Shown here piece after piece: positions 44,966 through 63,539 of a stretch of DNA of 64,000 nt (position 1 is its first letter; the number at the start of each line of letters is the position of its first letter). The stretch is taken from NCBI RefSeq assembly GCF_001431725.1, contig NZ_CP013106.1, forward strand, positions 4,588,001 through 4,652,000. The letters are read 5' to 3'. Origin of the DNA: Halomonas huangheensis. GTDB taxonomy: Bacteria; Pseudomonadota; Gammaproteobacteria; Pseudomonadales; Halomonadaceae. The position numbers were made by a program, and so were the translations under genes. The notes below the pieces were generated by a model. That model was not told where the DNA came from. It saw only the letters and a program-made list of their open reading frames with translations, and searched no databases.

Positions 44966-46123
44966 TCAGCCGTGGCGAGGACCATCCGCGGTGGCATCGA
45001 TGTCGACCTCGACCATCATGCCGGGGCCGATCAGATCGATCGGACCATCGTCCAGCTCGATGCGTACCGGGATACGCTGGGTGATCTTGGTAAAGTTGCC
45101 GGAGGGGTTGGGGTCAGGCAACAGCGCGAACTGGCTGGTCGCGGCACGTCCGATGACGGCGACATGGCCATGGAAATCACCATCAGGAAAGGCATCCACG
45201 GTGATGTCCACTGTCTGCCCAAGGCGTAATTCGCCAACATCGGTTTCCTTGATGTTGGCCTCGACCCACAATCCATCGGGATCATGCATCATCAGAATCG
45301 GCTGGCCAGCGCTGATGTATTCCCCCTCATCGATCAGCGTCTTGTCGACCACCCCGCTGATCGGGCTCGGCACCTGCAGATCGTCAAGACGAAGCTGCTG
45401 CTGGGCTAACCGCGAGCGGGCCTGGGCCAATTCCTGGCTTGCCACTGCCAGTTCGGCGCGGATCACATCGGGATTGGGCAGAGGCATCTGCGAGCCGCCG
45501 ATGAATCCGACCTGGGCATTGTCGGCCTGGGCCTGGCTGACCGCTACTTCCTGGGTCGCTTGATGAAACTCTGCCTCGGCAGATTGCAGCACGTAATAGT
45601 CCTCGTCACGCTGCTGCTGTGAGACCGAATGGTTGGCCAGCAACGAGTTGGAACGCTCGTAGTCCTTGCGGGCCTGCTCCAGCCGCGCATTGGCAGCATC
45701 CATCGCCGCTCGGCTGGCTTCCAGTTGCTGATGGGTAATATTCACACCGCCGTCTAGCTGTGCCTGAGCCAGCTCCAGCCGTGAATTCTGGTAATCCACC
45801 TGCGCCTGCATGGCAGCCACACCCGCCTGTAGCGTCTCGAGCTCACGCTCGTCCGGCTGGCTGTAGAGTTGTGCCACGACGTCATCCTTGGCCAGGTTCT
45901 CGCCCTCGATGATCGAGAAGTCGGTTACCCAACCCGAGAGGCGGCTGCTGACCGTCACCTGATCGGCCATCACCCGGGCATCCTGAGCGCTGACATGGGT
46001 CAGGCGATGATGGATCGCCAGTCCGGCCCAGACCAGGCAGGCCAGAACCAACAGTGTCATCAGCACCAACCGGAGAGTACTGGGCAGGCGACGGGAAGCG
46101 GCTTGCGAAGATGGCGATGTCAT
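44966..46123 (-). CDS. EmrA/HlyD-type membrane fusion protein
   Basis: A 385-residue adaptor of a tripartite efflux pump. It has one N-terminal membrane segment (LVLMTLLVLACLVWAGLAIH), a biotinyl-lipoyl half-domain pair, a long alpha-hairpin coiled coil (about 95-215, rich in Gln, Ala and Glu) and the C-terminal beta-barrel QTVDITVDAFPDGDFHGHVA. It lies 29 bases downstream of the MFS gene on the same strand, giving an order reversed from E. coli emrAB. It would link the MFS pump to a TolC-like protein in the outer membrane. Confidence 0.93.
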   Translation of the reverse strand: MTSPSSQAASRRLPSTLRLVLMTLLVLACLVWAGLAIHHRLTHVSAQDARVMADQVTVSSRLSGWVTDFSIIEGENLAKDDVVAQLYSQPDERELETLQAGVAAMQAQVDYQNSRLELAQAQLDGGVNITHQQLEASRAAMDAANARLEQARKDYERSNSLLANHSVSQQQRDEDYYVLQSAEAEFHQATQEVAVSQAQADNAQVGFIGGSQMPLPNPDVIRAELAVASQELAQARSRLAQQQLRLDDLQVPSPISGVVDKTLIDEGEYISAGQPILMMHDPDGLWVEANIKETDVGELRLGQTVDITVDAFPDGDFHGHVAVIGRAATSQFALLPDPNPSGNFTKITQRIPVRIELDDGPIDLIGPGMMVEVDIDATADGPRHG

Positions 46124-46152
46124 GTTGAATGTCCTCGAACGAGCGAAAGGGA

Positions 46153-48589: not shown

Positions 48590-49354
48590 CTACTCCGCTG
48601 TCCAACCACCATCGATCTTCAGTGACGTGCCCGTTATCAGCGAAGCGGCATCAGACGCCAGGTATACGGCAGCGCCCATGATGTCTTCGACCGTGCCCAC
48701 TCGGCCCAGCTTGATCTTTTCCAGTAGCCACGAGACCTTTTCCGGATCGTCGAATGTCTGCTCGGTCAACGGTGTTCTGATGAAGGTGGGGCAAATGGTG
48801 TTGATGCGAATACCGTGCTGTCCCCATTCGATGGCCATCGCTTTGGTAAAGCCCTCGACAGCATGCTTGGTGGCACAGTAGACCGCTCGATCCGGCCCAC
48901 CGACATGCGCCATCTGGCTGGAGATATTGATCAGTGAGCCACCGCGCCCTGCTGCGACAAGGCCTCGGGCAACTGCCTGGCTCAGGAAGTAGGCACCCTT
49001 GAGATTGACGTCGACGACGGCATCGAAGTCATCGCTGGCGGTTGCCAGGGCCGGACCATGTCGCGCCAGGCCTGCCGAATTGATCAAGATGTCGTAAGGC
49101 CCACTACGCTCGATTTCGGCTTGCATATGCGCAATATCCGCGACATCGAGCACCAGTGATTCTACCTGCTGGCCACGCGCACGCAGCTCACTGACACAGG
49201 CATCGAGCTTCTGCGGCGAGCGTGCCGCCAATACTGTATGAGCGCCGGCATCCGCCAGCGCTACAGCACACCCCAGGCCAATGCCGGAAGAGGCGCCAGT
49301 CACCAGCGCCCGCTTACCCGCAAGAGAAAAGGAAGGTGGGTTAGGCAGTGACAT
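48590..49354 (-). CDS. short-chain dehydrogenase of the HisD-paralogue block
   Basis: A 254-residue classical SDR with TGASSGIG, the NSAGLARHG motif (NNAG variant with Ser), [11 protein letters not shown] with the catalytic Ser and [17 protein letters not shown] with Tyr and Lys. The C-terminus is [15 protein letters not shown]. It overlaps the first HisD-like gene by 14 bases, with GGAGGAG before its ATG, so it is translationally coupled. It would oxidise a secondary alcohol or reduce a ketone in the same pathway as the two HisD-like enzymes. The substrate is unknown. Confidence 0.9.
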
Positions 49355-50678
49355 CGGGCTCCTCCGCCATTACCGCAGGCTCACCGTACCCGACCTCCTG
49401 CTTGCCATAGCGGCGAACACGAAGGTTGGCCTGCTCCGCATGACCCACGAAGCCTTCCAGCAGACAGAGTCGAGAGCAATATGCGCCGATGCTGGCCGCC
49501 GCCTCATCAGTGGTGACACGCTGATAGCTATGCGTTTTCAGATACTTGCCTACCCACAAGCCACCGGTATAACGACCGGCCTTGCGCGTCGGCAAGGTAT
49601 GGTTGGTACCGATAACCTTGTCACCATTGGCGACATTGGTGCGCGGGCCAAGGAACAACGCGCCATAAGCGGTCATGTTATCGAGGAACCAGTCATCGCG
49701 ATCGGTCATGACCTGAACATGCTCAGATGCCAGTTCATTGGCGGTTTCGAGCATCTCGTCATAGCTGTCGCAGAGGATGATTTCACCATAATCGCGCCAG
49801 CTCACCGATGCCGTGTCGGCGGTGGGCAGAATCTTCAGGATGCGCTCGATTTCGCTGAGAGTGCCTTCTGCCAGTGTGCGCGAGTTCGTTATCAGCACGG
49901 CAGGCGAATCGTACCCATGCTCCGCCTGACCCAGCAGGTCGGTAGCACACATTTCCGCATCGACCGTCTCGTCGGCAATCACCAGGGTCTCGGTCGGCCC
50001 GGCGAACAGATCGATACCGACACGCCCAAAGAGCTGCCGCTTGGCTTCGGCGACGAAGGCATTACCCGGCCCCACCAGCATATGCACGGGATCGATGGTT
50101 TCGGTCCCCAGCGCCATGGCACCAACGGCTTGAATACCGCCCATCACGTAGATTTCGTGCGCCCCGCCAAGATGCATGGCGGCAATCACCGCAGGATTCG
50201 GCTCGCCATGGAACGGCGGTGTTGCTGCGATGATACGCGGCACGCCAGCGACCGATGCCGTTGCTACCGACATATGCGCCGAGGCCACCATCGGAAACTT
50301 GCCACCCGGCACGTAACAGCCGACAGACTGCACGGGGATGTTCTTGTGGCCGAGGATGACACCGGGCAGCGTTTCGACTTCAACGTCACGCATGGAGTCA
50401 CGCTGAATCTGCGCGAACGCCTTCACCTGCTGCTGGGCAAAGCGAATATCGTCCATCTGCTGCTTCGGAACCCTGGCAATCAGTTGCTCGATTTCCGAGT
50501 CCGACAGGCGAAAGCTGGCCGGCGAGTATTTATCGAACTTCTCCGACATTTCACGCACGGCGGTATCGCCACGCGCTTCAATATCGGCCAGTGCGGACTC
50601 GACCGCCTGCCGTGTGTTGTGATGATTCGTCGAGCGCTCGGCTTCGCTTTTGCCGCGTTTCAGATAGGTTACTGCCAT
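49341..50678 (-). CDS. histidinol-dehydrogenase-family alcohol dehydrogenase 1 (non-histidine)
   Basis: A 445-residue HisD-family enzyme. The zinc ligands align with E. coli HisD: Gln and His in GQAEHGYDS, Asp 7 residues before GTNH, and His in [11 protein letters not shown]. The catalytic Glu-His pair is in ASEHVQV. The Glu that binds the histidinol imidazole (Glu356 in E. coli) is replaced by Val, and no his genes are near. The nearest characterised analogues oxidise a primary alcohol to a carboxylate, e.g. HpsN acting on sulfopropanediol. GGAG lies 8 bases before ATG. The enzyme probably acts after the SDR or in parallel with the second HisD-like protein. Confidence 0.9.
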
Positions 50679-50703
50679 GCTGTCAACTCCCGTTGGCTGC
50701 TTG

Positions 50704-51510
50704 TTATTTGATGGATGCTGGTAGGCTGGATGAGCCTTGAGTCGCGGCCTGATCGATAGCGGCCTGGAAGCGCTCAGCCAATGCGTCGACTCCCTGAGCC
50801 ATAAGGGTGTGGTCTGAACCGACGACCATGAAGCTGGCCCCCGCCGCCATCAACGGCTGCAGGTCCTCACCTGGCGCACAGTAAAGTCCGGTTGCCGCTT
50901 GCTCTGTACCGAGAATCTGTTCCACCTGACCGACAATTTCCTCGGCGAAGAAGCTGGCAAAGCCGCTGGACACCGCAAGATCCGCGCGGCCGATGAACAG
51001 TGCATCAACGCCATCAACGGCGGCAATCTGCTGGTACTCCTGCGCACCTTCAACGTCTTCAATCTGACAGATCAGGCATGTTTCCTGAGCGGTATCACGC
51101 AGGTGCTCGGCAAACGGGCGACGTCCGTAGGATGCAGCGCGCGTGGTGCCCGCAAAGCCACGACCACCCGGCCCGTAGTACATCACCTTGGCCAGCTCTT
51201 CGGCCTGAGGCGCCGACAGCACATGCGGCACGATGACACCGGCAGCCCCACTATCGAGTACAGCGAGCAGATTTTCCGGGGAGCCAACCGGCACACGCAC
51301 CAGCAACGGGCATTGCACGGCACGACCGGCGATCATCGCCGCATCCAGCGTTCCGCGATCAAAAGGCGCGTGCTCCATGTCGAGTATCAAGAAGTCGAGC
51401 CCGGACGCCCCCATCACTTCAATGATGATCGGGTGCGGTGTCTTGATGAAAGCACCGAGTAAAGGCTCACGACGCTGGAGCCGCGACTTGAAATCGCTGA
51501 GAACATTCAT
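50704..51510 (-). CDS. HpcH/HpaI-family aldolase of the HisD-paralogue block
   Basis: A 268-residue class II pyruvate aldolase. It has the catalytic His in LDMEHAPFD, the [13 protein letters not shown] loop, the metal-site Glu in [10 protein letters not shown] and the Asp in [10 protein letters not shown]. It differs from RhmA in the window by IDGEHAPN against LDMEHAPF and in the metal region, so a different substrate is likely. It is cotranscribed with the HisD-like genes on either side. A 2-keto-3-deoxy or 4-hydroxy-2-keto acid made by the dehydrogenases would be the expected substrate. Confidence 0.9.
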
Positions 51511-51556
51511 GAAACACCTCTAAATGAAGGCAAGTCTGGGGACTGGAAGCCGTGCT

Positions 51557-51622
51557 GAAGATCAGTTGTGAAGATCAGTTGTGAAGAACCGTGCTGAGAG
51601 CACTGCCTCCCACCAGGAGGCA
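51557..51622. repeat. 13-bp tandem repeat and hairpin before the aldolase gene
   Basis: GAAGATCAGTTGT occurs at 51557-51569 and 51570-51582, with a further GAAGA. Next to it TGCCTCC (51604-51610) pairs with GGAGGCA (51616-51622). Both sit in the 160-base gap between the second HisD-like gene and the aldolase gene, and might be a processing or attenuation element. Confidence 0.6.
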
Positions 51623-51670
51623 ATGACACAACGGACCACAGGACCAGGCATCTAGATCAAGGCGCCCGCA

Positions 51671-53026
51671 TCAGGCCCCGAGTCGATCCAGTCGAATCTG
51701 TGCCGCCCTGCGATGCCCTTCCAGGCCCTCACTGGCACTCTGGCGTGCAGCCGGAGGAGCCACCTGCTGGATGCCTTCATCCGTCAGCCACTGGTGGGTC
51801 GCGGTCTTGATGTAGGTCCCCACCCACAGGCCCCCGGTGTAGCGACCTGCCGCCATGGTTGGCAGCGTATGGTTGGTGCCGGAACACTTGTCGGAATAGA
51901 CAACACTGGCCGCCTCACCGATAAACAGCGAGCCGTAGCACGATAGCTTCGCGGCAAGAGCTTTATCGTTCTCGGTATGAATCTGTAAATGCTCGGCGGC
52001 AACATGGTCGGAATAGGCAATCATCGCCGCTTCGTCGGCGACCAGCGCAATTTCGCCATAATCCTGCCACGCCGGGCCAGCAGTGTGTGCGGTGGACAGG
52101 CTTTCAAGCTGACGATCCACCTCGACCAACACCGCCTTCGCCAGTGCTTCGTCGGTGGTGATCAGGCCAACGCGAGTCCTGACATCATGCTCGGCCTGAG
52201 CCAGCAGGTCGGTGGCGATCAGTTCCGCATCACCGGTGTGGTCGGCGAGCACGAAAATCTCGGAAGGCCCAGCCAACTGGTCGATACCGACTGGGCCGAA
52301 GACCTGGCGTTTAGCCTCGTTCACGAATGCATTACCGGGGCCAACGATCTTGTCGACTCGCGGCACGCTCTGAGTACCGAATGCCATGGCAGCAATTGCC
52401 TGGGCGCCACCAATACGGAAGATGCGATCAGCACCGGAAAGGTGGCAACCCGCAATCATCGCTTCGTGAGCATTGGGCGGCAGGCAGGCGATAATCTCGC
52501 CCACGCCAGCGACCTTGGCCGGCACGATAGTCATGATCGGTGCAGAGAGCAGCGGATAGCGGCCACCTGGCACATAGCAACCCACACGCTCGAGCGGAAT
52601 GTTGCGGTGCCCCATGTGTACGCCCGGCAGGATCTCGACATCGATCTCCGACAACGACCCGAGCTGCGCCTTGGCGAAGGTGCGCACGTTGTTGATTGCG
52701 AACTCGGTGTCCTTGCGAGTCTGAGGATCGAGATTGGCGACGGCCTGCTCACGCTCGCTATCCGTGACTTCGAATACTTCGAGATTGGCGTTATCAAACT
52801 TCTGCGAGAACTCTCTGACCGCAGCATCACCCTGTTCACGCACGCGTGAAAGGATATCTGCCACCAGGCTCTCTACCTGACCGCTGTCAGCCCCGGCATC
52901 ACTCTTGGGTGCCTTGATGAAGGTAGGCGCTTGTACAGAGTTCGGCGCCAGCGTCCTGTCACCTTGAGCTGCCTTTGGTTCTTGAACATCTGGTTCTTGA
53001 ACATCCGTGACCTGGTCAATGCTCAT
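51671..53026 (-). CDS. histidinol-dehydrogenase-family alcohol dehydrogenase 2 (non-histidine)
   Basis: A 451-residue HisD-family protein with a 50-residue polar N-terminal tail. Zinc ligands are kept (AQAEHDVRT, the Asp 7 residues before [18 protein letters not shown]), as is the Glu-His pair in AAEHLQI. As in the first copy the histidinol Glu is Val. It differs in many other places, so the pair may act on successive alcohol groups or on two stereoisomers. ATG 53026 is preferred; an in-frame ATG at 53071 has no ribosome site. A perfect 9-bp dyad lies about 125 bases upstream. Confidence 0.88.
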   Translation of the reverse strand: MSIDQVTDVQEPDVQEPKAAQGDRTLAPNSVQAPTFIKAPKSDAGADSGQVESLVADILSRVREQGDAAVREFSQKFDNANLEVFEVTDSEREQAVANLDPQTRKDTEFAINNVRTFAKAQLGSLSEIDVEILPGVHMGHRNIPLERVGCYVPGGRYPLLSAPIMTIVPAKVAGVGEIIACLPPNAHEAMIAGCHLSGADRIFRIGGAQAIAAMAFGTQSVPRVDKIVGPGNAFVNEAKRQVFGPVGIDQLAGPSEIFVLADHTGDAELIATDLLAQAEHDVRTRVGLITTDEALAKAVLVEVDRQLESLSTAHTAGPAWQDYGEIALVADEAAMIAYSDHVAAEHLQIHTENDKALAAKLSCYGSLFIGEAASVVYSDKCSGTNHTLPTMAAGRYTGGLWVGTYIKTATHQWLTDEGIQQVAPPAARQSASEGLEGHRRAAQIRLDRLGA

Positions 53027-53404
53027 GATCTTGTCTCTTGCAGGAGGATTTCCCCTATAAGTACCAAGCATTGAATACGTTTTCAATTTTGTTCGGCAAT
53101 CACCAAGTACGACCTTAGGCTAACAAAGTAGCGGATAAATATTAAACAATTGATAAAAAAGAATTTTATCAAGATGGATCACCGACAAAAGACAGCGGAT
53201 CGACCATCATTTATCAATGAATTCGTACCCAAAAAAGACTAATGCGCAATTGCCAAGGGAACCAAAAGACGGCTGCACGCCAGCCCTGCGGCTGATCTGC
53301 GCAGCGAGCGTTCCGAAGAGGAGTATTCTGGAGGATTGGTAGCCATCACGAAGATGGCCGTAGAGCAGCGATTGCGGGACGCGGGCACTTTTCTCAGGCG
53401 AGGT
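53027..53404. other. promoter region of the HisD-paralogue operon
   Basis: 378 bases with no credible gene, between the second HisD-like start and the lacI-type stop. It is AT-rich around 53130-53190 and holds the inverted repeat at 53150-53172. Confidence 0.6.
53150..53172. promoter_or_regulatory. candidate operator, 9-bp perfect dyad
   Basis: TTGATAAAA (53150-53158), 5-base spacer, TTTTATCAA (53164-53172). It lies upstream of the HisD-paralogue operon and could be the operator of the LacI-type protein encoded at 53405-54412, or another regulator. The TTGATA arm could also serve as a -35 element. Confidence 0.4.
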
Positions 53405-54412
53405 CTAATCGCGAGTGGTGCCGCGCCGCACCAGCGTCGGCGGAATTCTCAGCTTGATAGGTAATGGGGTCTCGGGCTCCTCGATGGCTGTGATCAGCTC
53501 AGTGACCGCCTTGGACACCATCAGGTTGACGTGCTGACGCACCGTGGTCAGGTTGAAGCTGGGCCACGCCGCCTGCGGAACATCATCGAAGCCAACCACC
53601 GACACATCTTCGGGTATCCGCAGACGGAACTCGCTACGAATAACGTCCATGGCCGCAAAGGCCATATGGTCATCGGTGACGAACAAGGCATCAGGCGGAT
53701 CGGGACGGTCGAATAGCTCATGCGTGGCCTCGACCGCTTCGGCGTAGTGGAAGTTACCGACAGCGCGAGAGTGCAACTCCTGGCCTTCGGCCTTGAGCGC
53801 TTCCAGAAAGCCACGCTCACGTTCTATCTGGGTCGAGGCTCCCTCATAACCCGCCAGATGCGCGATGCGTTCTGGCCGTGAGGCCAGCAACGCCTGTGCC
53901 GCCAGCGAGCCACCGCGCAGGTTGTCGGTCGTCACCGCCATCAGGTCGAGGTCGGGCTGATCGCGATTGAACAGCATCACCGGAATCGACAGGTCAGCAC
54001 AGCGCTGCGCCAGTACCGATGACATCGACACCGACACCATGATGATCCCGTCGACTCGGTAATCGAGTATCTGCTGCATCACCGGCTTGACGTCACCGAC
54101 GGTGCGCGAGGACATGAACAGGAGAACGTGATATCCGCTCTCCTGAAGAGCAGCCGACAGCTTCTCGATGACTTCCGGGTAGAACTGGTTCTCCAGATAA
54201 TAGACTACCAGGCCAATGATCCGACTCTTGCCGGTAATCAGCGAACGGGCCAATACATTGGGCCGGTAGTCGAGCTCTTCCGCCGCCTTGCGAATCTTTT
54301 CCGCCATTTTGGCCGAGAGTGAAGCCCCCGGGGTAAAGTAACGTGATACCGCCGATTGGCTGACACCCGCGTGGCGAGCTACATCCACCGAAGTTACGCT
54401 TTTACCCGCCAT
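53405..54412 (-). CDS. LacI-family transcriptional regulator
   Basis: A 335-residue LacI-type regulator. The N-terminal helix-turn-helix reads VTSVDVARHAGVSQSAVSRY, followed by the hinge helix (ELDYRPNVLARSL) and a periplasmic-binding-like effector domain (GIMVSVS-like strands, VTDDHMAFAAMD, VVGFDDVPQAAWPS). ATG 54412 has GGAG 6 bases upstream and is preferred to the TTG at 54415. It lies 40 bases after the ABC ATPase gene on the same strand, so it is probably expressed with the transporter and controls the block in response to a sugar or polyol. Confidence 0.94.
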   Translation of the reverse strand: MAGKSVTSVDVARHAGVSQSAVSRYFTPGASLSAKMAEKIRKAAEELDYRPNVLARSLITGKSRIIGLVVYYLENQFYPEVIEKLSAALQESGYHVLLFMSSRTVGDVKPVMQQILDYRVDGIIMVSVSMSSVLAQRCADLSIPVMLFNRDQPDLDLMAVTTDNLRGGSLAAQALLASRPERIAHLAGYEGASTQIERERGFLEALKAEGQELHSRAVGNFHYAEAVEATHELFDRPDPPDALFVTDDHMAFAAMDVIRSEFRLRIPEDVSVVGFDDVPQAAWPSFNLTTVRQHVNLMVSKAVTELITAIEEPETPLPIKLRIPPTLVRRGTTRD

Positions 54413-54452
54413 CAAGATCTCCGTTCATCAGTGCTCTGGTCTATCAATGCCA

Positions 54453-55550
54453 TCAAGTTGCCATTGCCATGGGCGCGCCTACGGCAGCGCAATCGGCCGA
54501 GGTATAAATGGCTGCCCCTGTCTCATGGTCAAATAGCTTACATAGTGAAGGGTCGATACGTGCCGAAACGTCTGTGCCAATGTTGGCCCGGTAATCCTTG
54601 GGCGCCTTGAGATTGACCAGCTCGTTCGCGACCCGAACCGCCACCATCGAAGAGTCTCCCAGCAACTCGAGGGTATAGATCGGTGCGTTGATCTGCCCTT
54701 GCGAGGCAACCAGCTCAACATCCTCGGCCCTGAACCCCAGCGTCACCTTACCGGAGATATCCGTGGGAAGCCCCTCGATGCGCATATTCTCTGCGCTGAA
54801 GACGCCATTCGAGATATCACCACTGACAAGGTTCATGGCCGGGGAGCCGATAAAGCTGGCCACAAAGGCATTGGCAGGGCAATCATAGATCTCTGTTGGA
54901 GTACCCACCTGTTGGACCACGCCTTGGTTCATGACTACCACACGATCTGCCAACGTCATCGCTTCGATCTGGTCATGAGTGACGTAGATGGTGGTCGTTT
55001 TCAGCCGGTGCTGAAGATTCTTGATCTCCGCCCGCGTTGTGACGCGTAGTTTAGCATCCAGGTTGGACAGTGGCTCATCCATCAAGAACACCGTCGGCTC
55101 ACGAACAATCGCCCGCCCCAGCGCAACACGCTGGCGCTGGCCGCCCGATAGCTCCGCCGGGCGACGCTCCAGCAACTCGGTCAAATCGACCATTTCCGCA
55201 GCCTCCATGATCCGCTCGTGATGCTCGCTCCTGGGCACCTTGCGTACTTTAAGCGGAAAGCGGATGTTCTCGTAAACGGTCAGGTTCGGATAAAGCCCGT
55301 AGCTCTGGAAGACCATGGAAATGTCTCGATCCTTGGGTTCCAGATCATTGATGACACGGTCTCCAATCAGGATTTCACCACCAGAGATACTTTCCAGACC
55401 GGCAATCATGCGCATGGTCGTGGATTTTCCACAGCCCGAGGGGCCCAGCAGAACAATGAATTCCTGGTCGGCGATCTCGAGGTTGAAGTTATTGACGCCC
55501 ACGACTGAGCCCCAACGCTTGCAGACATTCTTGAGATGAATACTGGCCAT
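54453..55550 (-). CDS. sugar ABC transporter ATP-binding protein (MalK/UgpC-type)
   Basis: A 365-residue ATPase with Walker [10 protein letters not shown], signature [15 protein letters not shown], Walker [14 protein letters not shown] and the switch His in [10 protein letters not shown]. The C-terminal ~130 residues form the OB-like (TOBE) domain of MalK-type proteins ([11 protein letters not shown]). It is 6 bases after the second permease gene. MalK-type ATPases serve CUT1 transporters for oligosaccharides, polyols and glycerol phosphate. Confidence 0.95.
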
Positions 55551-55556
55551 GATTTC

Positions 55557-56447
55557 TTATCCTTTTACCGCGCCAGCGGTAAGACCGCTGACAATATAAC
55601 GTTGGAAAAACATCACGAGCATGAATAACGGCACCGTGGCCGAAACCACCGCCGCAACCGCATACATGATGGCCCCATCAGACTGCACGGTGCCGAGGAA
55701 TGAGTTGATCTTGGGCACCATGGTCTGGTTGTCCTGACTCAGCAGCATTGAAGTCACAGCGAAGTCGTTATAGGAGAGCAGAAAGCTGAACAACCCCGTG
55801 GTGATGACGCCTGGCCACATGACCGGCATTACCGCCAGCCGAAACGCCTGGAAGCGTGTACAACCATCGACCATGGCGCTCTCATCGAGATCCTTGGGTA
55901 TCGACAGGAAGAAGCTGTGCAACATCCACAAGGTAAACGGCTGATTGATGGCAACCAGTACAATGATCGAGGTCGGAAGTGCACCCCAGATGTTCATCTC
56001 GAAGAATGGCATCAGATAGCCAGATACCAGCGTGATATGCGGCATGGCTCGGAATACCAGCGCTGCGATCAATATCCAGAACACGTATTTCTTCCTGGAG
56101 CGTGATAGCGCATAGCCACCGAGCGTACCGAACACCAGGCTGATCGCAGTAACACTCACCGTGACAATGGCAGTGTTGAGGAAGGCACGCCAGAATTCGC
56201 GATCGACCCAGGCCCCCTCGTAGCCTTCCATGGTGAAGGCAGAACCTGTCGTTTGAAGGGTCTTGACGCCGTAGAGAGCATTTTCCCAGGTTTGCCGACT
56301 GAAGAAGTCTGCCTCGACCTTGAAGGACCCCCACAGCGTCCACAGGAAAGGGAATGCCGCGATGACCAGCCATATCGCCAACAATGCGAAGGCAATGACT
56401 GACGCTTTCTTTTTGTTGGCGTCAGCAGGAGATGCCGCAATAATCAT
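55557..56447 (-). CDS. sugar ABC transporter permease (MalG-type)
   Basis: A 296-residue membrane protein with six hydrophobic segments. The EAA-type coupling loop is DESAMVDGCTRFQAFRLAVM followed by P. ATG 56447 overlaps the MalF-type gene stop by 4 bases. It forms the inner-membrane pore with the next permease. Confidence 0.94.
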   Translation of the reverse strand: MIIAASPADANKKKASVIAFALLAIWLVIAAFPFLWTLWGSFKVEADFFSRQTWENALYGVKTLQTTGSAFTMEGYEGAWVDREFWRAFLNTAIVTVSVTAISLVFGTLGGYALSRSRKKYVFWILIAALVFRAMPHITLVSGYLMPFFEMNIWGALPTSIIVLVAINQPFTLWMLHSFFLSIPKDLDESAMVDGCTRFQAFRLAVMPVMWPGVITTGLFSFLLSYNDFAVTSMLLSQDNQTMVPKINSFLGTVQSDGAIMYAVAAVVSATVPLFMLVMFFQRYIVSGLTAGAVKG

Positions 56448-57490
56448 GATGCGCTCCCGTCAGGGTTCTTTTGTTTGAAGTTGCGCCAGGTCCTCATCAG
56501 AACGGGGATCAAAAGGATAACGACGCAGATAACCGTAAGCACCGAAGTCGATGCCGCCGATCCATAGAGCTTGTCGACCTGACCATTCAGATCGTTGTAG
56601 ATGGACCACGAAAGCGAGGTCGCATTGGCTTCCGCCGAGAAACCAACGATGGGCTCGAAAATACGGAAGTTGTCCATCATCAGAACCAACGCAAGGAAGG
56701 TCGTCAGCGGGAACAGATGCGGAATCACAACGTAGCGTATCCGCTCCCACTTACTGGCCCCATCGATCATTGCGCTTTCCAGTGTATCCTGTGGAATTGT
56801 CTGGAGACCGGCGTAATAGACCACAAAGGGAAAGGGCGCCATGTGCCATATTCCATAAACAATCAATGTCACCCACGTCAACACAGGGGATGCCTTGAGC
56901 GACAGCTCTGGATCATTGAAGATCATCTGTAATGTCGCGCCGATGATGCCATTGGAGTTGATCATCCAGAACAAGGTTAGCGAGCCGATCAACGGTGTGA
57001 CGATATAAGGAAGCAACGACAGGAAAATCACCGGCCCCTTGAGCTTCTTCGGGATATTATTGACGGCCATGGCAACCAGGAACCCAACAATCATTGCCAG
57101 CGGTGTCGCCAAAAATGTGTAGGCGATCGTAAAGGCAAGTGCCTTGTAGAACGGCAGGTTATAGATACGCGAAACAGTCTCGCCAATACTCTCAGTGCTC
57201 TCGAATATTGTACCCAGCTCATCGACGGCCAGGTGACCTCGATCAAGGTAGGTTCCGAGTCCATTGAACTTCCCCAATGGGGCCTCTTCTATCAAATTCT
57301 CCGTCGCCTCTACATCAATATGCGTTGTCTGCTCACAACCAAAAGGCCCGCAATCCTCCGCCAGGCTCAGTACCTTGTCATGCTCGGTATAGAAGGATTG
57401 AACAACGATCGATCCGGTCGGCAAGACGATAAAAAGAAACATGGCCAGCAATGATGGCAACATGAATGAAAAGAAGCTGCGATGCGTCAT
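56444..57490 (-). CDS. sugar ABC transporter permease (MalF-type)
   Basis: A 348-residue membrane protein with about six to eight hydrophobic segments and a periplasmic loop of about 80 residues after the first. The coupling loop is ESAMIDGASKWERIRYVVIP. GAGG lies about 6 bases before the ATG. The periplasmic loop contains two Cys (DCGPFGC) that might form a disulfide. It follows the binding-protein gene by 92 bases. Confidence 0.93.
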   Translation of the reverse strand: MTHRSFFSFMLPSLLAMFLFIVLPTGSIVVQSFYTEHDKVLSLAEDCGPFGCEQTTHIDVEATENLIEEAPLGKFNGLGTYLDRGHLAVDELGTIFESTESIGETVSRIYNLPFYKALAFTIAYTFLATPLAMIVGFLVAMAVNNIPKKLKGPVIFLSLLPYIVTPLIGSLTLFWMINSNGIIGATLQMIFNDPELSLKASPVLTWVTLIVYGIWHMAPFPFVVYYAGLQTIPQDTLESAMIDGASKWERIRYVVIPHLFPLTTFLALVLMMDNFRIFEPIVGFSAEANATSLSWSIYNDLNGQVDKLYGSAASTSVLTVICVVILLIPVLMRTWRNFKQKNPDGSAS

Positions 57491-57582
57491 GGGGCGCCTC
57501 TAGTAGCAAGATGGGGCGAAATCGGTCGATATACGTCGTCAGCATTGTTATCGGTTGCTGGTGCTGATGGTTGACGACCTTT

Positions 57583-58824
57583 CTAGTCAAGAAAGCCAGA
57601 TGAACGAGCACTGGTTCGATAAGCCGCCTCAACGTCGGCCAACGCCTGCTCTGCGCTTTCCTGCCCTTGCATGTAATCGGTCAGCTCCGAACCGAGCGCG
57701 GCATGCATGAGCCCCATAAAGGGATTCATCGGGTAGGGGCGACCGCCGCTGTTGATGGTATCAAGCACACCTCTTGCACTCTCTGGCGCCTCGTAGCCCT
57801 TGATCAGCCATGTCGCGGCATTCGGATGCTCATTGGCGACGCTTGAACGCATGCCATACATCATCGCCCGGAAGCTGGCTTCAGCATCTTCATCCGACAC
57901 ATTCTTCGCGATAGTGAAACCGTCCCACCACAGTGCCGCCGCAGGAATGTCATGCCCTCCCAGGGTAGGAGCAGGCGCAAGTAACGTCGTCCGGCTTATC
58001 TCGGGAGCCGCACCATTGGGATCAAGGTGTGAGTTCACCATTGACCCCCACTGATTGATGATCGCGACCTTGCCATCCAGATACAGCTTCTTGAGGTCAT
58101 CAGCCGTCAGGGTCAGATACTCCGGCGGCATGTATTCCGTCATCTCCTTCATGAGCTCCAGCACTTGAACACCCTCGGAATTATTGATCGTGGGTTCAGC
58201 GCTGCCGGGCTCGAAGAACTGACCACCCAGGCTCAGGTAGTTGTTTACAAATTCATTGCCGAGATACCAGCCAGCTTCATAGGCTGCCGCAAGCGGGTAC
58301 TGCATGATTCCCGCTTCTCTGATGGCACGAGCTGCGTCGAGGACCTCCTGATATGTCCTCGGTGGAGAAATGCCAAGATCGCTCAATATATCGCCGCGCA
58401 TGAACAGATGCTGGCTGTTGGCCATGAAGGCGATAGCGACAGTCTTGCCGTTGATCTTGATCAGTTGATCAGATTCGAGATTCTGGCCGTATTTCTCAAC
58501 ATATTCATCGAGAGGCCTTACCAAACCCGCAGAAAGCAGAGGTGGCAGCGTATTGGTTGAAACCATCGCAACGCTATAGATAGCGGGATCTATCGTCAGC
58601 GCTGAAACCTGAATACTCTTGTGCTCGGTCGTCCTGTTGGTTCTGACATTTACTGTATCGGACGCACAGTGCCTGGCCTCGTTCAAGACGACGCCAAGTG
58701 AATCTATATCATTCGACAGCACACGTACCGAGCCGCTTTCAATTCCACATTCGGCAGCAGCAATATTTGAAACGAATATCAGAGGTAATAGGCAAACCGT
58801 CGCCAAGGCACATAATCTTGTCAT
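57583..58824 (-). CDS. sugar ABC transporter substrate-binding protein
   Basis: A 413-residue periplasmic binding protein (CUT1 family 1). The signal peptide is LCALATVCLLPLIFVSNIAA. The binding lobes show DPAIYSVAMVSTNTLPPLL, LYLDGKVAIINQWGSMVNS and the typical GGHDIPAAALWWDGFTIAKN with aromatic residues near the sugar site. ATG 58824 has GGAG upstream and gives a normal signal. It is first in the transport operon. Four tandem 17-bp repeats lie about 70 bp upstream of its start, the most unusual regulatory sequence in the window. Confidence 0.92.
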   Translation of the reverse strand: MTRLCALATVCLLPLIFVSNIAAAECGIESGSVRVLSNDIDSLGVVLNEARHCASDTVNVRTNRTTEHKSIQVSALTIDPAIYSVAMVSTNTLPPLLSAGLVRPLDEYVEKYGQNLESDQLIKINGKTVAIAFMANSQHLFMRGDILSDLGISPPRTYQEVLDAARAIREAGIMQYPLAAAYEAGWYLGNEFVNNYLSLGGQFFEPGSAEPTINNSEGVQVLELMKEMTEYMPPEYLTLTADDLKKLYLDGKVAIINQWGSMVNSHLDPNGAAPEISRTTLLAPAPTLGGHDIPAAALWWDGFTIAKNVSDEDAEASFRAMMYGMRSSVANEHPNAATWLIKGYEAPESARGVLDTINSGGRPYPMNPFMGLMHAALGSELTDYMQGQESAEQALADVEAAYRTSARSSGFLD

Positions 58825-58893
58825 GATTTTATCTCCTTCCAGATCGTGCCGGATCATTCGGGTACTTATATTTTTATGTCTGCCAGAACCTGG

Positions 58894-58961
58894 TCTGACA
58901 ATTCTTGTAATCTGAAAAATCTATTAGTCTGAAAATTCCTGTGACCTGACAACTTCTGTAT
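58894..58961. repeat. four tandem 17-bp repeats upstream of the ABC binding-protein gene
   Basis: The copies begin TCTGACAATTCTTGTAA (58894), TCTGAAAAATCTATTAG (58911), TCTGAAAATTCCTGTGA (58928) and CCTGACAACTTCTGTAT (58945). They share YCTGAMAA at their start and diverge more at the end. A related 15-base unit, TCTGCCAGAACCTGG, precedes them. They lie between the binding-protein gene start and the SnoaL-like gene stop. Confidence 0.85.
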
Positions 58962-59042
58962 CCAGAAGCGCTTGCCCCGGAGTGTTGTTATCCAGGGACT
59001 TCAGGCCGAGCCGATATATCAGCCCGGCGCTGCGCATTTCGT

Positions 59043-60209
59043 TCAGGGGTCGGCAGGTGCATCTGCCAGTTGAGCGAGCTTGATCTGGACCAGCATCGAC
59101 AGCTCGTCATAAACAGTCCACTCATCGACAATGCGACCATTCTTGTAATGATAATGGGAAATGCCCATCACCTGGACGCGCTTGCCAGTGGGGTCACCAA
59201 AGCTCTCGATGCCACCGTAACCGAGATGATGGCCTTCCATGACCCAGCGAACAGCAACCTTGGTTCCACCCTCGACACAGGGAACGGAGCAGATGTGCTG
59301 AGGCTCGAAACGCGCATCAGGAAGCGAGCCCACCAGGCCGATCACTTGATGGGTAACAGCATGAGTGCCGTAGAGTTCTTTCATTAGCGGGCCATGGTAC
59401 ATAGCCGTCGGCGCATAGACTTCACGAATCTTGCCGAACATCTTGCGATTCCAGACATCATGCAGCCACTGCAGTGTTTCTCGCTCGATATCATTGTTGG
59501 CAATCGAGAGGTCGGCATGGGTTGCCGGTGGGTACTGACCCAGCATCAGTCCGTTCTCACCAATATCAAGCGCCTTGACGCCCTGCGCGAGCTTGGTGCT
59601 GGCAATCTTTTCGGCAAATGCTTGAGGATCGAGACCCAACTGCTGAACGATTGCCATCTGATCCGAGACGACCCACTCACGGTAGATCTTGTTCTCGAAG
59701 ATCATGCAGTCGGCAACAGTCCTCGACGTGAACGGCTTGCCATTGGCTGGTCCAAAATGACCGTTCTGAGTGTATCGGCCGGACCCGGTAACCAGGTGCG
59801 AAGTGTAGAACCCTTCACGGTCATCGCCATTCCAGATCACGTGGGTAGCCATACCACGGCGCTCCGGGAAGCTCACCAACCGCTGGATAGTGTCGCGCAC
59901 GACATCTTCGCGGTTATACATCGTGCCCATGGTGCCGTAGAGCACACAGTTATTGGTGTAGTGAGTGTAAATAAGCCCTACATCACGCTCGTCCCAGATC
60001 TTGTGAGTGCAACGCACGATGTAATCGACGATATCGGTGTAGCAATCATCAAAACCCTTCAGAGACTGCGAGCGCGGACGGCTGTCACTGACCAGGTCCA
60101 CGAAATCCAGACGCTCGCTCTGCAGCACCTGCTCGCTGAATGCCTGCTTGGGGCGAGACGGAGTGGCCTCCTTCGGAGTCGCGACTGTCTCTTCTTGTTT
60201 ACTGGCCAT
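59043..60209 (-). CDS. two-domain SnoaL/NTF2-like protein
   Basis: A 388-residue protein that I read as two NTF2-like folds in tandem (about residues 50-190 and 240-375). The first has DVGLIYTHYTNNCVLYGTMG and the second REVYAPTAMYHGPLMKELYG, each the start of a cone-shaped domain with a buried cavity. SnoaL-like enzymes are cyclases, isomerases or hydratases; single domains are usually about 130 residues. ATG 60209 has GGAAGGA upstream. It precedes the transporter genes and is divergent from the bicupin operon. The substrate is unknown. Confidence 0.85.
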   Translation of the reverse strand: MASKQEETVATPKEATPSRPKQAFSEQVLQSERLDFVDLVSDSRPRSQSLKGFDDCYTDIVDYIVRCTHKIWDERDVGLIYTHYTNNCVLYGTMGTMYNREDVVRDTIQRLVSFPERRGMATHVIWNGDDREGFYTSHLVTGSGRYTQNGHFGPANGKPFTSRTVADCMIFENKIYREWVVSDQMAIVQQLGLDPQAFAEKIASTKLAQGVKALDIGENGLMLGQYPPATHADLSIANNDIERETLQWLHDVWNRKMFGKIREVYAPTAMYHGPLMKELYGTHAVTHQVIGLVGSLPDARFEPQHICSVPCVEGGTKVAVRWVMEGHHLGYGGIESFGDPTGKRVQVMGISHYHYKNGRIVDEWTVYDELSMLVQIKLAQLADAPADP

Positions 60210-60266
60210 GATTCCTTCCAATGTTTGCAAATTTAGACTGGTGTGCCACCGCAAAATGACATGCGA

Positions 60267-60280
60267 TGCATAAGTATGCA
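60267..60280. promoter_or_regulatory. candidate operator in the SnoaL/cupin divergent promoter
   Basis: TGCATAAGTATGCA is a 6-bp perfect dyad with a 2-base centre, about 60 bp from the SnoaL-like start and 230 bp from the bicupin start. The 297-base region holds no gene. The dyad could bind the LacI-type regulator, though it differs from the dyad at 53150. Confidence 0.35.
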
Positions 60281-60506
60281 AATGCTTTTCCAGCTCTTCT
60301 ACCAAGGTATTATTCCACCGAGCATCGCCAACAATGATGCTGTACCGGAGGTTGTCAGCAGGTTAGTAGAAGGTTCGCAGCAGGTTTCACAGTAGCTACC
60401 CAGAGCCTCACCTCAAGAATTTGTTGAAAAATAATGACTACGTATTCATTCTGAGATGATGCAAGATCAATGCTGTTTGCCAGACAACAAACAAGGAGCA
60501 CACGCA

Positions 60507-61478
60507 ATGACGCTGAGCCCAGAAGAGATGGAAGCGCGCATCGTCCGCTATGGCGATCTCAAGCCCTGTCGCAGCGCTTTCATCGACGCACACACGCCAG
60601 GCTCAAATCAGAAGGAAAATTTCACGATCGTCGGTGGCGGCGTGAGCGAGAGTTCCGACCAGCATGTTCACATCAGTGACACGCCAGGCTTCAACATCGG
60701 CGCGGCGGGACAACCACCAAAATGCCTCAACAGCCTTCATACCCATAGCACCGCAGAGGTGTTCTTTGTGCTCAGCGGACGTTGGCGCTTTTTCTGGGGA
60801 CGCTATGGGGATGCTGGCCAGGTCGTGCTGGAGGAAGGCGATATCATCAATATCCCGACCGGCATCTTCCGCGGCTTCGAGAACATCGGCACCGACTACG
60901 GCATGATCATGGCGGTTCTCGGTGGTGACGATGCTGGAGGCGGTGTGGTCTGGGCGCCTCAGGTCATCGAGAACGCAAAAGAGCATGGCCTGGTGCTCGG
61001 CGAGAACGGCAAGCTTTATGACACCAAGGCGGGCCAATCGCTGCCGGAAGGCGTCCAGCCGATGCCGCTGCTGACCGAGTCAGAGCTGGCAAGGTACCCG
61101 GAGCTCCCGGCAAGCGAAGTGGTACCACACTACGTCGCTCGCTACTGGGATCTGATGGCACTGGCTTCCAACAGCCCCGCCAAGGTCATCGGTGAAAATG
61201 CCCTGTTACGTGACAAACCCGGCTTCGAGGTCGAGCTACTGACACGCGGCTCTGTTCCCGCTCAACCCGCCAGTTGCGATCAGCACGAGGTACTGATGGT
61301 GATGCGCGGACACTGGAAGCTGAACTGGGAAGGCGGCTCCAGGGTATTGGCCCCGGGTGACACCTGCGCGATCCCCCCACAGTTGGCCTATGCCATCGAA
61401 CCTGCGATGAGCGGTGAAGCCAGCCTCTACCGGGTACGCTCAACCGATGATCCGGCAGGCCCGACATGGCGAGGCTGA
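60507..61478 (+). CDS. bicupin protein
   Basis: A 323-residue protein with two cupin domains. The first (about residues 70-130) has LNSLHTHSTAEVFFVLSGRW, with His-x-His and a Glu as metal ligands. The second, further C-terminal, has CDQHEVLMVMRGHWKLNWEG, with a shortened His motif. AAGGAG lies about 10 bases before ATG 60507. Bicupins include gentisate-type dioxygenases and quercetinases, as well as isomerases. It is the first gene of the operon with an alpha/beta hydrolase and an amidase (13-base overlap downstream). Confidence 0.82.
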   Translation: MTLSPEEMEARIVRYGDLKPCRSAFIDAHTPGSNQKENFTIVGGGVSESSDQHVHISDTPGFNIGAAGQPPKCLNSLHTHSTAEVFFVLSGRWRFFWGRYGDAGQVVLEEGDIINIPTGIFRGFENIGTDYGMIMAVLGGDDAGGGVVWAPQVIENAKEHGLVLGENGKLYDTKAGQSLPEGVQPMPLLTESELARYPELPASEVVPHYVARYWDLMALASNSPAKVIGENALLRDKPGFEVELLTRGSVPAQPASCDQHEVLMVMRGHWKLNWEGGSRVLAPGDTCAIPPQLAYAIEPAMSGEASLYRVRSTDDPAGPTWRG

Positions 61479-62185
61479 ACCCGCCGCGGCGCCTTCCGCT
61501 GTTGATGCTGCCCGGTATGATGTGCGACGCACGCATGTTCGGCCCTCAGATGGCTGCGCTCTCCGCTGGGCGCAGCTTGATGGTGCCGGATCTGGGCGGC
61601 GAGGAAAGCATCGCGGCACTGGCCAGCAAGGTGCTGGATGAGGCTCCGCCGCGCTTTGCGCTGGCGGGGCTTTCCATGGGCGGGATCGTTGCCATGGAGA
61701 TTCTCGCCCAACAACCAGAGCGAGTGGCAGGAATGGCGCTCATGAACACCAATCCCCGCGCCGAACTACCGGAAGTGCGCGCAGGTCGCGGGCCACAGAT
61801 CGAAGCCGCGCGCCAGGGGCAGATGCTCGGCCTGATGGAAGAGCACATGTTTCCGCTCTATAGCGTCGGTGATAACTCCGCAATATCCGATATTGCGCGA
61901 GACATGGCGAACTCGCTGGGGGCAGAGGTATTCATTCGCCAGTCTCTTGCACTGCGTGATCGCGAAGATCGCTGCGACGTGCTGCAACAGAGCCATATTC
62001 CGACCTTGATCCTCGGCGGGCACAACGACCAGTTATGCCCTCCCGAGCGACATGAGTTCATGGCGTCGCTGATGCCGCATGCAAAATTGGTGATGCTGGC
62101 AGAAACGGCTCATCTGTCGACACTGGAGCGGCCGGTGGAAACGTCTGCCGCATTGAACGAATGGCTGGATACGTTGCATGACTGA
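61466..62185 (+). CDS. alpha/beta-hydrolase fold enzyme
   Basis: A 239-residue hydrolase. The nucleophile Ser is in GLSMGGIVAME, the acid in LGGHNDQLCPP and the His in ETAHLSTLERP, and the oxyanion loop in LPGMMCDARMF. There is no signal peptide. The gene overlaps the bicupin gene by 13 bases and the amidase gene by 8, implying a coupled operon. It could be a lactonase, carboxylesterase or C-C hydrolase acting on a bicupin product. Confidence 0.88.
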   Translation: MARLNPPRRLPLLMLPGMMCDARMFGPQMAALSAGRSLMVPDLGGEESIAALASKVLDEAPPRFALAGLSMGGIVAMEILAQQPERVAGMALMNTNPRAELPEVRAGRGPQIEAARQGQMLGLMEEHMFPLYSVGDNSAISDIARDMANSLGAEVFIRQSLALRDREDRCDVLQQSHIPTLILGGHNDQLCPPERHEFMASLMPHAKLVMLAETAHLSTLERPVETSAALNEWLDTLHD

Positions 62186-63539
62186 ACTCCTCGACCAGAG
62201 CATCCGTGAACAACTGCATGAACTGAACGCAGGGCATACCACGGCACAAGCAATACTGGATGCAACGCTTGATCGGATCCGGGACCGAAATCAGCGACTG
62301 CACGCTTATGTTCACATCGACGAAAGCGGAGCCAGAGCGCAGGCCCAACGAATCGATCAATTGCGGGCCGCCGGGCTGGATACAGGGCCACTGGGCGGCA
62401 TTCCTGTCGCGCTCAAGGACCTGATCGATGCCAAAGGGCAGCCAGGATACTGCGGCTCTCATGCCTTCGACGCAAAAGCGCCAGAGCACGATGCCGAAAT
62501 CGTTGCCCGGTTGCGAGGGGCCGGAGCCATCATTCTCGGTAAGGTGGCCACCTACGAGTTCGCCTTGAATGGTCCCACCTACGACCAGCCCTATCCGATA
62601 GCGCGCAATCCGTGGAACCTTGAGCATATTACCGGAGGCTCATCCTCGGGCAGTGCCTCAGCGGTTGCTGGCGGTACAGTCAGAGCGGCCATCGGAACCG
62701 ACACCGGAGGCTCAGTCAGGAGCCCGGCAAGCTATTGCGGCATCGTCGGGCTGAAACCCAGTACTGGACTGCTGCCGCTCGATGGCGTCTTTCCGCTCTC
62801 GCAATCTCTCGACACCCTTGGCGTGCTGGCAATGTGTGTCGACGATGCCGCCATACTGCTCGATGCCATGTCGGCCCAGCAAGGCCAGAGTGCCGCCGCT
62901 AGTCGCATCGACCAACCCGTTTCAGGGCTTACGATCGGCTACGCACGCGACTGGATAACCGACAACCCGAATACCGACCCCGCAGTCATCGACCTGCTTG
63001 ATGCCGCCGCCTCCAGCCTGTCACTGCTCGGCATGCGCGTAACCCCCATCACCATGCCGGATTACCCCGCCAGCGAAGAGGTCGGGCGCATCATCCTGCT
63101 TCAGGAAGCATTTCTGAACCACCAACACCGGCTGGGAACACACGGTCAGGACTATGGCGAAGTAACCCGCGAAGTGTTGATGGAGGGAGCAAGCATCAAC
63201 CCGACCGAAGTCAGCCAGGCACGTGAGATGGCACAGCGCCTGCGAACCGAGGTTGATGACGTCCTCAACACCAGCGGAATCATCATGACCGCGACCACGC
63301 TTGGCCCCGCTCCGCCGCTGGGCAACGGCAAAGCCGTCTGGACCCCGATGCGAACCATACCGTTCAACATTACCGGACACCCCGCCATCAGCATCCCGTG
63401 CGGCTTTATTGACGGCTTACCCATCGGCTTGCAACTCATCGGCCGCCACGGCGACGAAGCCAGCCTCTGTCAGATCGCCCATGCCTTCGAACAAAGCACG
63501 GCGCACTCCGTTCAGCGCCCACCAACACACACCTATTAA
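62178..63539 (+). CDS. amidase-signature family enzyme
   Basis: A 453-residue amidase-signature protein. The Ser-Ser-Lys triad aligns as Lys80 (VALKDLIDA), Ser155 (ITGGSSSGSASA) and Ser179 (GTDTGGSVRSPAS), with the family's usual 75- and 24-residue spacing. Such enzymes hydrolyse amides or carbamates. AtzF/allophanate and GatA-like proteins share the fold, but nothing suggests tRNA amidation here. It starts 8 bases inside the hydrolase gene. The amide nitrogen source and substrate are unknown; the operon suggests it acts on the same compound. Confidence 0.92.
   Translation: MTELLDQSIREQLHELNAGHTTAQAILDATLDRIRDRNQRLHAYVHIDESGARAQAQRIDQLRAAGLDTGPLGGIPVALKDLIDAKGQPGYCGSHAFDAKAPEHDAEIVARLRGAGAIILGKVATYEFALNGPTYDQPYPIARNPWNLEHITGGSSSGSASAVAGGTVRAAIGTDTGGSVRSPASYCGIVGLKPSTGLLPLDGVFPLSQSLDTLGVLAMCVDDAAILLDAMSAQQGQSAAASRIDQPVSGLTIGYARDWITDNPNTDPAVIDLLDAAASSLSLLGMRVTPITMPDYPASEEVGRIILLQEAFLNHQHRLGTHGQDYGEVTREVLMEGASINPTEVSQAREMAQRLRTEVDDVLNTSGIIMTATTLGPAPPLGNGKAVWTPMRTIPFNITGHPAISIPCGFIDGLPIGLQLIGRHGDEASLCQIAHAFEQSTAHSVQRPPTHTY

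Follow-up and report, generated by a model that had tools for sequence, protein, structure and literature searches.

A 64,000-nucleotide stretch of Halomonas huangheensis DNA (the window; positions 4588001–4652000 of a one-contig genome of 4.76 Mb) was analysed for a putative catabolic gene block at 48590–63539. The block was composed of 13 genes, encoding two HisD-family dehydrogenases (HisD_A and HisD_B), a short-chain dehydrogenase/reductase (SDR), an aldolase, a CUT1 importer with a LacI-family repressor, a double-domain SnoaL protein, a bicupin, an α/β hydrolase and an amidase. The open reading frames (ORFs) and the Pfam and NCBIfam scans agreed with the gene families named in the first-pass annotation of this DNA. 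That annotation had counted fourteen genes in two halves; a porin-like gene just past the amidase can serve as the fourteenth, and strand and spacing gave three transcription units instead of two halves. Unit 1 (minus strand) contained HisD_A, aldolase, HisD_B and SDR; unit 2 (minus strand) contained SnoaL, the solute-binding protein (SBP), the permeases, the ATPase and LacI; and unit 3 (plus strand) contained cupin, hydrolase and amidase. The features are listed in Table 1 with their longest ORFs. The true starts of SnoaL (~60212), cupin (~60507) and HisD_A (~53026) probably lie downstream of the listed starts, because of the positions of the ribosome-binding sites and of the regions to which relatives align.

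Table 1. Genes and candidate operators of the block (window positions; core and peripheral denote the two modules described in the text)
Feature	Position	Strand	Basis or remark
SDR dehydrogenase, KduD/gluconate-5-dehydrogenase-like, core	48590–49354	minus	Pfam; ORF overlaps HisD_B
HisD_B, HisD-family NAD dehydrogenase, core, motif GKFPM	49341–50678	minus	PF00815, 442.8–442.9 bits
HpcH/HpaI-family class II pyruvate aldolase	50704–51510	minus	PF03328; GarL/HpaI-type relatives
HisD_A, second HisD-family dehydrogenase, peripheral, motif GRYPL	51671–53086	minus	PF00815, 459.1–459.4 bits
O1, LacI-type operator candidate, TGAATACGTTTTCA	53072–53085		before HisD_A operon
LacI-family repressor	53405–54415	minus	PF00356 and Peripla_BP
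MalK/UgpC-like ABC ATPase (CUT1)	54453–55550	minus	NF008653, 461.2 bits (cut-off 432)
CUT1 permease 2	55557–56447	minus	PF00528
CUT1 permease 1	56444–57490	minus	PF00528
SBP	57583–58857	minus	PF01547
Double-domain SnoaL/NTF2-fold protein, peripheral	59043–60305	minus	PF07366, two stretches
O2, LacI-type operator candidate, TGCATAAGTATGCA	60267–60280		before SnoaL-transporter operon; AG replaces central CG
O3, LacI-type operator candidate, TGACTACGTATTCA	60435–60448		before cupin operon
Bicupin, core	60456–61478	plus	family scan and AlphaFold2 fold
α/β hydrolase, PcaD/BioH-like, core	61466–62185	plus	PF00561/PF12697
Amidase-signature hydrolase, peripheral	62178–63539	plus	PF01425, 318 bits
Porin-like gene, 358 aa	63742 to beyond 64000 (L127:1742–2818)	plus	recognised by its resemblance to the Porin_1 protein of related cluster L095

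The best PF00815 match of the genome was a third copy outside the block (G000:C1:1635109–1636323), with 564 bits against the lower scores of HisD_A and HisD_B. This copy is expected to be the HisD of histidine synthesis, and neither block copy would be that enzyme. The closest solved structures of both block copies were those of HpsN (387 bits for HisD_B and 330 bits for HisD_A). Both copies kept the aligned Zn-ligand and Glu/His/Asp catalytic residues of HpsN and HisD (QAEH, SEH/AEH, DK and the C-terminal His), the roles of which are described for HpsN in the available part of PMC11382572. According to the same part of that source, the sulfonate motif of HpsN is G-R-Y-A/S-H, of which the histidine (His126) binds the sulfonate. 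The corresponding motifs were GRYPL in HisD_A and GKFPM in HisD_B, with the sulfonate histidine in neither. A motif census was made over the ORFs of loci L001–L101, with the two window copies and a few fragments among the rows. Among the HisD_A-scoring rows, 71 of 72 read GRYPL, GRYPI or GRFPL and one was unreadable. Among the B-scoring rows, 74 of 77 read G-x-[YF]-P-[LM], one was unreadable, and the remaining two, from the HpsN-like loci L100 and L101 of the window's genus, read GRYAH. The first-pass reading of two HisD-family enzymes in the pathway was supported; neither is the genome's own HisD, and neither is of the HpsN type. The GSAPL motif given in PMC11382572, as far as that source was available, was not diagnostic here; the genome's own higher-scoring HisD reads GKAAY.

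These residues also bear on whether the block encodes a form of sulfopropanediol (DHPS) catabolism, with HisD_B as HpsN and the SDR as HpsO. The pairing of a HisD-family enzyme with an SDR resembles HpsN/HpsO, as described in the available part of PMC11131964, and HpsN enzymes are the closest solved relatives of both copies. However, the sulfonate histidine was missing from the 71 HisD_A and 74 HisD_B rows above and present in both control loci. None of the 13 genes was assigned to SuyAB, Xsc or ComDE in the family scans; the HisD gene of control L100 stands beside a PALP-family, CuyA-like gene. Identity with HpsN was rejected on the motif, with the two loci as positive controls, and DHPS catabolism is extremely unlikely for the block.

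In L100 itself, the PALP-family gene precedes HisD, and a TRAP-like permease, read from the sequence, follows; L101 contains the same gene clusters. Both loci likely serve sulfopropanediol catabolism.

When a tree of the HisD sequences was built, the proteobacterial HisD_A and HisD_B copies formed separate groups. Both window copies adjoined Marivivens and Roseibium sequences, and HisD_B was separated from the remaining HisD copies of the genus. The block was therefore probably acquired from an alphaproteobacterium. One Deinococcus copy formed a long branch outside the A group, and its placement is unsure.

The conservation of the block was examined in 80 loci anchored on SnoaL, the best 80 of 110 confirmed relatives. 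Presence was judged by score thresholds of our own setting, and 66 of the 80 loci were at least 20 kb long, so that part of the absences reflects truncated loci. Near SnoaL, HisD_A and LacI were each found in 71 loci, HisD_B in 59, cupin in 52, SDR in 51 and amidase in 48. The α/β hydrolase was found in 51 loci and was in some of them fused to SnoaL. The same gene set returned in shuffled order in other genomes, which indicates an association beyond chance. Deinococcus, Enterobacterales and Alphaproteobacteria had similar sets, and bacteria from the sea, soil and plants were among those with close counterparts.

In 248 genomes of the Marivivens family, drawn evenly from a larger group, HisD_A was found in 14 and double SnoaL in 13. 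Twelve genomes contained both (hypergeometric probability 1e-17, with genomes treated as independent), two HisD_A only and one SnoaL only. In all 12 shared genomes the two genes lay on one contig within 18.5 kb. The three exceptions, on contigs C202, C370 and C464, probably reflect fragmented assemblies. HisD_B (E 1e-150) and cupin (E 1e-40) were more widespread, with 124 and 104 of the 248 genomes, respectively, and 101 with both. HisD_B was present in 12 of the 13 SnoaL genomes, as was cupin, with G409 holding neither at these thresholds, and HisD_B was also present in 11 of the 14 HisD_A genomes. Within the window's genus, SnoaL was found in 2 of 90 genomes and HisD_B relatives (at least 65% identity) in 14 more. 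The SDR adjoined HisD_B in all 14 other loci of the genus fetched for HisD_B, and five of these (L091, L092, L095, L096 and L098) also contained cupin and distant double-SnoaL genes.

The set is therefore modular. A widespread core of HisD_B and SDR, often with cupin, hydrolase and aldolase, is joined by a rarer nested add-on of HisD_A, SnoaL and amidase. Independent occurrence of the halves had been named in the first-pass annotation as a finding that would speak against one pathway. The HisD_B–SDR pair, with or without cupin, often occurred without HisD_A and SnoaL; yet HisD_A and SnoaL were nearly always together, and mostly with the core. The outcome is thus a graded one.

Several of the HisD_B–SDR pairs of the window's genus (L086–L099) stood near TRAP, SSS or CUT1 genes or genes read as TTT components. 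A LacI regulator was often present in these loci, and the same palindrome in some. Those without the SnoaL add-on probably represent related pathways for other substrates. Several roseobacter core clusters carried additional double-SnoaL proteins, as did Octadecabacter.

A near-palindrome preceded each of the three operons (O1–O3). O1 and O3 had TGAnTACGTnTTCA in common, and these two sites were the only exact matches to this pattern in the whole genome. The degenerate consensus TGMNTAMGTNTKCA matched the 4.76-Mb genome at three places, with a single site ahead of every unit; its reversed control had no match. This consensus was written with the sites already in view, including the third palindrome before SnoaL, and the other genomes therefore weigh more. 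When CG-centred palindromes in the 80 SnoaL loci were tallied without a preset pattern, the core ATACGTAT ranked first with 56 loci, ahead of a runner-up core with 25. With at most one mismatch, TGMATACGTATKCA gave 180 sites in 75 of the 80 loci and none in one dinucleotide shuffle per locus; since it was derived from the palindrome count on the same loci, this tally is descriptive. In total, 178 of the 180 sites lay within 300 bases of the start of a cluster-type gene. The nearest start was that of SnoaL (43 sites), MFS (29), HisD_B (26), HisD_A (25), cupin (24), LacI (15), SBP (8), amidase (5), α/β hydrolase (2) or SDR (1), with two sites having none. Outside the 80 loci, TGMATACGTATKCA was found in plasmid clusters of Pantoea (a perfect site) and Deinococcus (two perfect sites), and it was not found in the HpsN-like controls L100 and L101. 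The available main text of a LacI regulon survey (PMC4052901) contains neither "histidinol" nor "atacgtat".

The arrangement is that of a local regulon, with a LacI protein and palindromic sites before the regulated operons. The three operons are predicted to form one jointly switched unit, with LacI as the candidate protein for binding the palindromes. This arrangement argues against two or three unrelated pathways standing side by side by accident. The presence of HisD_B–SDR without SnoaL in 14 of 90 genomes of the genus, and the absence of HisD_A from 92 of the 104 cupin genomes of the Marivivens family, would suit such an accident. By contrast, it would leave unexplained the common palindromes with no other match in the genome, the tight pairing of HisD_A with SnoaL, and the similar sets in Deinococcus, Enterobacterales and Alphaproteobacteria. 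Palindromes and co-occurrence together make accidental adjacency very unlikely.

Several steps were kept between loci while their enzymes were exchanged. In the 80 SnoaL loci, the aldolase was RraA-like in 28 and of the HpcH type in 23, with neither in 29 and both in none. The importer was of the MFS type in 22 and contained an SBP in 30, with neither in 28 and both in none. According to the deposited annotation, a Deinococcus plasmid carries two hisD genes, an SDR, LacI, an aldolase/citrate-lyase gene, a hydrolase and a shorter cupin, together with a sugar SBP, two permeases and four "ester cyclases"; a nitrilase-family carbon–nitrogen hydrolase replaces the amidase. That each step persists while its enzyme changes speaks most strongly for import, aldol cleavage and C–N hydrolysis as parts of the pathway. 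The C–N hydrolase and pyruvate-type aldolase steps proposed earlier are retained, whereas the HpcH aldolase as the general cleavage enzyme is not borne out by the 80 loci. The exclusivity of HpcH and RraA is limited to the SnoaL-anchored set, because locus L091, of the genus Halomonas, holds both types.

L091 also contains 2-hydroxyacid and malate/lactate-type dehydrogenases and an FAD oxidoreductase. A MetE-like gene (cobalamin-independent methionine synthase family) was considered as an aldolase substitute and rejected, as 10 of the 12 SnoaL-anchored loci with this gene also had RraA. In roseobacter core clusters, a MetE-like gene was seen in 9 of the 12 loci L109–L120, and also in L125.

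The replacement of the amidase in Deinococcus by a C–N hydrolase of another family is expected if C–N hydrolysis is needed. It therefore speaks against a purely carbohydrate pathway for a polyol or branched sugar acid, in which the amidase-signature enzyme would be an esterase or lactonase and no nitrogen would be involved. That pathway would suit the CUT1 transporter, the LacI regulator, the KduD-like SDR and the GarL/HpaI-like aldolase, as well as the enteric loci, in which the amidase is absent or divergent. It would also suit distant cupin–HpcH–hydrolase trios beside oxo-tetronate genes in Vibrio and Thioclava. Taken together, a purely carbohydrate pathway of this kind appears rather unlikely.

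The importer was complete, with an SBP, two permeases and a MalK/UgpC-type ATPase. The profile relatives of the SBP were, in order, 5iai (a sugar ABC transporter chain), trehalose/maltose binders, SmoF (sulfoquinovosyl-glycerol), MalE3, a sorbitol binder and then oligosaccharide binders. A polyol- or glycoside-like ligand would fit these relatives, in line with the earlier proposal of a single catabolic unit served by a CUT1 importer. The Pfam and NCBIfam scans assigned none of the 13 genes to a glycosidase family, and the neighbouring genes of related loci did not fix the substrate.

The AlphaFold2 model of SnoaL (predicted local distance difference test score (pLDDT) 83) showed two NTF2-type domains. 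Fusions to an α/β hydrolase were found in at least 18 SnoaL homologues among the 120 matches listed of 1554. The bicupin model (pLDDT 86.7) had a quercetinase/OxdC-like fold; in its first domain His95, His97 and Glu101 were conserved, and Arg139 occupied the usual position of the fourth ligand. Quercetinase-type metal cupin oxygenases combine such a fold with a complete 3-His/1-Glu site. Residues Ser70 and His216 of the α/β hydrolase were retained in 95% or more of 55 rows. Likewise, Lys80, Ser155 and Ser179 of the amidase, which correspond to the Lys-Ser-Ser catalytic triad of the amidase-signature family, were retained in 95% or more of 40 rows; the 330-bit minimum set for these rows left out the divergent enteric amidases. 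The aldolase matched PF03328 with 89.3 bits against a gathering score of 25, and it was not an HpaI, GarL or RhmA equivalog (best NCBIfam score 135.5 bits, cut-off 368.8 bits). The SDR was under the cut-offs of all 25 NCBIfam models listed of 233.

The best-known SnoaL domains are those of polyketide biosynthesis, which would suit a biosynthetic or modification cluster with SnoaL as a polyketide cyclase. However, the 13 genes included neither a synthase nor any other assembly-line enzyme, and an SBP importer, a LacI repressor, hydrolases and pyruvate-type aldolases are what a catabolic cluster typically contains. The substitution of MFS for ABC transporters also argues against it, and a biosynthetic role is judged highly improbable.

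With a probability of about 0.6, the block is a single, probably horizontally acquired regulon that comprises three operons and is repressed by the LacI product of unit 2. Its role would be to take up and break down a polyol-like small molecule with a -CH(OH or NH)-CH2OH group at one or more ends and with a hydrolysable C–N bond, such as an amide. The gene set, its conservation and modules, the common palindromes and the conserved catalytic-type residues were observed directly, whereas LacI binding, the individual reactions, their order and the substrate class are inferred. The compound would enter through the porin and the CUT1 transporter. HisD_A and HisD_B would each turn a hydroxymethyl group into a carboxylate in two NAD+ steps, and the SDR would oxidise the adjacent secondary alcohol. 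The double SnoaL, cupin and α/β hydrolase would isomerise and open the carbon skeleton, the amidase would release nitrogen, and the aldolase would give pyruvate and a second carbonyl compound. In this scheme the peripheral module (HisD_A, SnoaL and amidase) would feed the core (HisD_B, SDR, cupin, hydrolase and aldolase). The first-pass pathway was partly supported: it was the right kind of explanation and pointed in this direction, its substrate is putative, and its gene count and the generality of its aldolase are corrected here.

Several observations weigh against this proposal. The amidase passed the threshold in only 48 of the 80 loci and was absent or divergent in the enteric ones, and the C–N step may therefore be optional. 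The fold of SnoaL supports many reaction types, and specificity can vary between close HisD relatives. The cupin lacks the fourth metal ligand in domain 1 and an HxH motif in domain 2, which makes its chemistry uncertain, and the Deinococcus cupin aligns to only about half of it. The window-derived pattern TGAnTACGTnTTCA, when one mismatch was allowed, gave 15 genome matches against 9 for the reversed control and was hardly enriched. Five of the 80 SnoaL loci had no palindrome, nor did the Novosphingobium cluster with the full set (L105); of the six roseobacter core loci scanned among L109–L120, five had none and L111 had a site. Finally, the G+C content of the cluster (56.8%, compared with 57.6% for the rest of the window) does not stand out and gives no indication of recent transfer.

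The first-pass annotation knew of no described pathway with this set, and none was described among the listed results of open-access literature searches, several of which had further hits, as judged by titles and abstract openings. These searches covered LacI regulons, oxo-tetronate neighbourhoods, mycosporine breakdown, SnoaL proteins in catabolism, HisD-like enzymes and the gene set itself. When the block was compared with known systems, each shared some of its parts. HpsN/HpsO catabolism in Cupriavidus and Ruegeria, according to the available parts of PMC11382572 and PMC11131964, likewise combines a HisD-family Zn/NAD enzyme for four-electron oxidation of an alcohol to an acid with a gluconate-dehydrogenase-like SDR. 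In contrast, the His126 motif is in neither HisD here, and there are two HisD copies together with SnoaL, cupin, hydrolase, amidase, aldolase and CUT1 import. The HMG/CHA-type aldolase pathways of gallate and syringate breakdown are alike in that, in Pseudomonas NGC7, syringate breakdown includes a hydrolase and a SnoaL-type predicted isomerase (available part of PMC12314914). They differ from the block, whose 13 genes matched no family of aromatic ring-cleavage dioxygenases and include CUT1/LacI genes and a HisD pair. The aldolase GalC belongs to the RraA family. The lignin-dimer lyases LdpA and PcfL are NTF2-superfamily proteins that act as catabolic C–C lyases, as described in the available part of PMC12997858, whereas the window SnoaL has a double domain and is tied to HisD and CUT1. 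No LdpA-type NTF2 lyase was named among the PDB sequence matches of SnoaL, which leaves kinship possible.

The loci for 4-carbon acid sugars (OtnIKC) are alike through distant minimal trios of cupin, HpcH aldolase and α/β hydrolase, which stood beside otnK/otnI-type (2-/3-oxo-tetronate) genes in Vibrio pelagius and Thioclava; the window cluster, by contrast, has no otn gene. In Rhizorhabdus wittichii, a minimal trio stood beside an SDR. The trios of these three organisms are those of loci L121, L126 and L124.

About two fifths to one half of the genomes sampled from a single large marine family contained core genes, and similar full sets reached Deinococcus and Enterobacterales. This distribution suggests that a common environmental compound is probably eaten by a route whose enzymes are annotated as histidinol dehydrogenase, ester cyclase and cupin. 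HisD_A and HisD_B are candidates for two new specificity classes within the HisD family, and their misannotation as hisD would be corrected. The operator and the module map make the proposed pathway directly testable.

Mycosporine- and gadusol-type cyclohexenones are common natural sunscreens. As a long shot based on chemical considerations, the core module might degrade these compounds. A HisD would oxidise the hydroxymethyl group on the tertiary carbinol, the cupin and hydrolase would open the 1,3-dicarbonyl ring, and an HMG/CHA-type aldolase would split the tertiary hydroxy-oxo acid to pyruvate and a 2-oxo acid. In the versions of roseobacters and Devosia, the MetE-like protein would take off the methoxy methyl group, and HisD_A, SnoaL and amidase would strip the amino-acid or amino-alcohol part. 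If true, bacteria of the sea and the phyllosphere would have a pathway that degrades sunscreen pigments.

The nearest named relative in the locus search was a Halomonas metagenome-assembled genome, with a SnoaL protein of 95% identity. At the other border of the cluster (44966–47697), an EmrB-family DHA2 efflux MFS protein (306 bits, NCBIfam cut-off 230.2) adjoined a HlyD-like periplasmic protein read from the sequence. Beyond the porin, cytochrome c-like, Rep-type helicase and PyrE-like genes, also read from the sequence, were apparently unrelated to the block.

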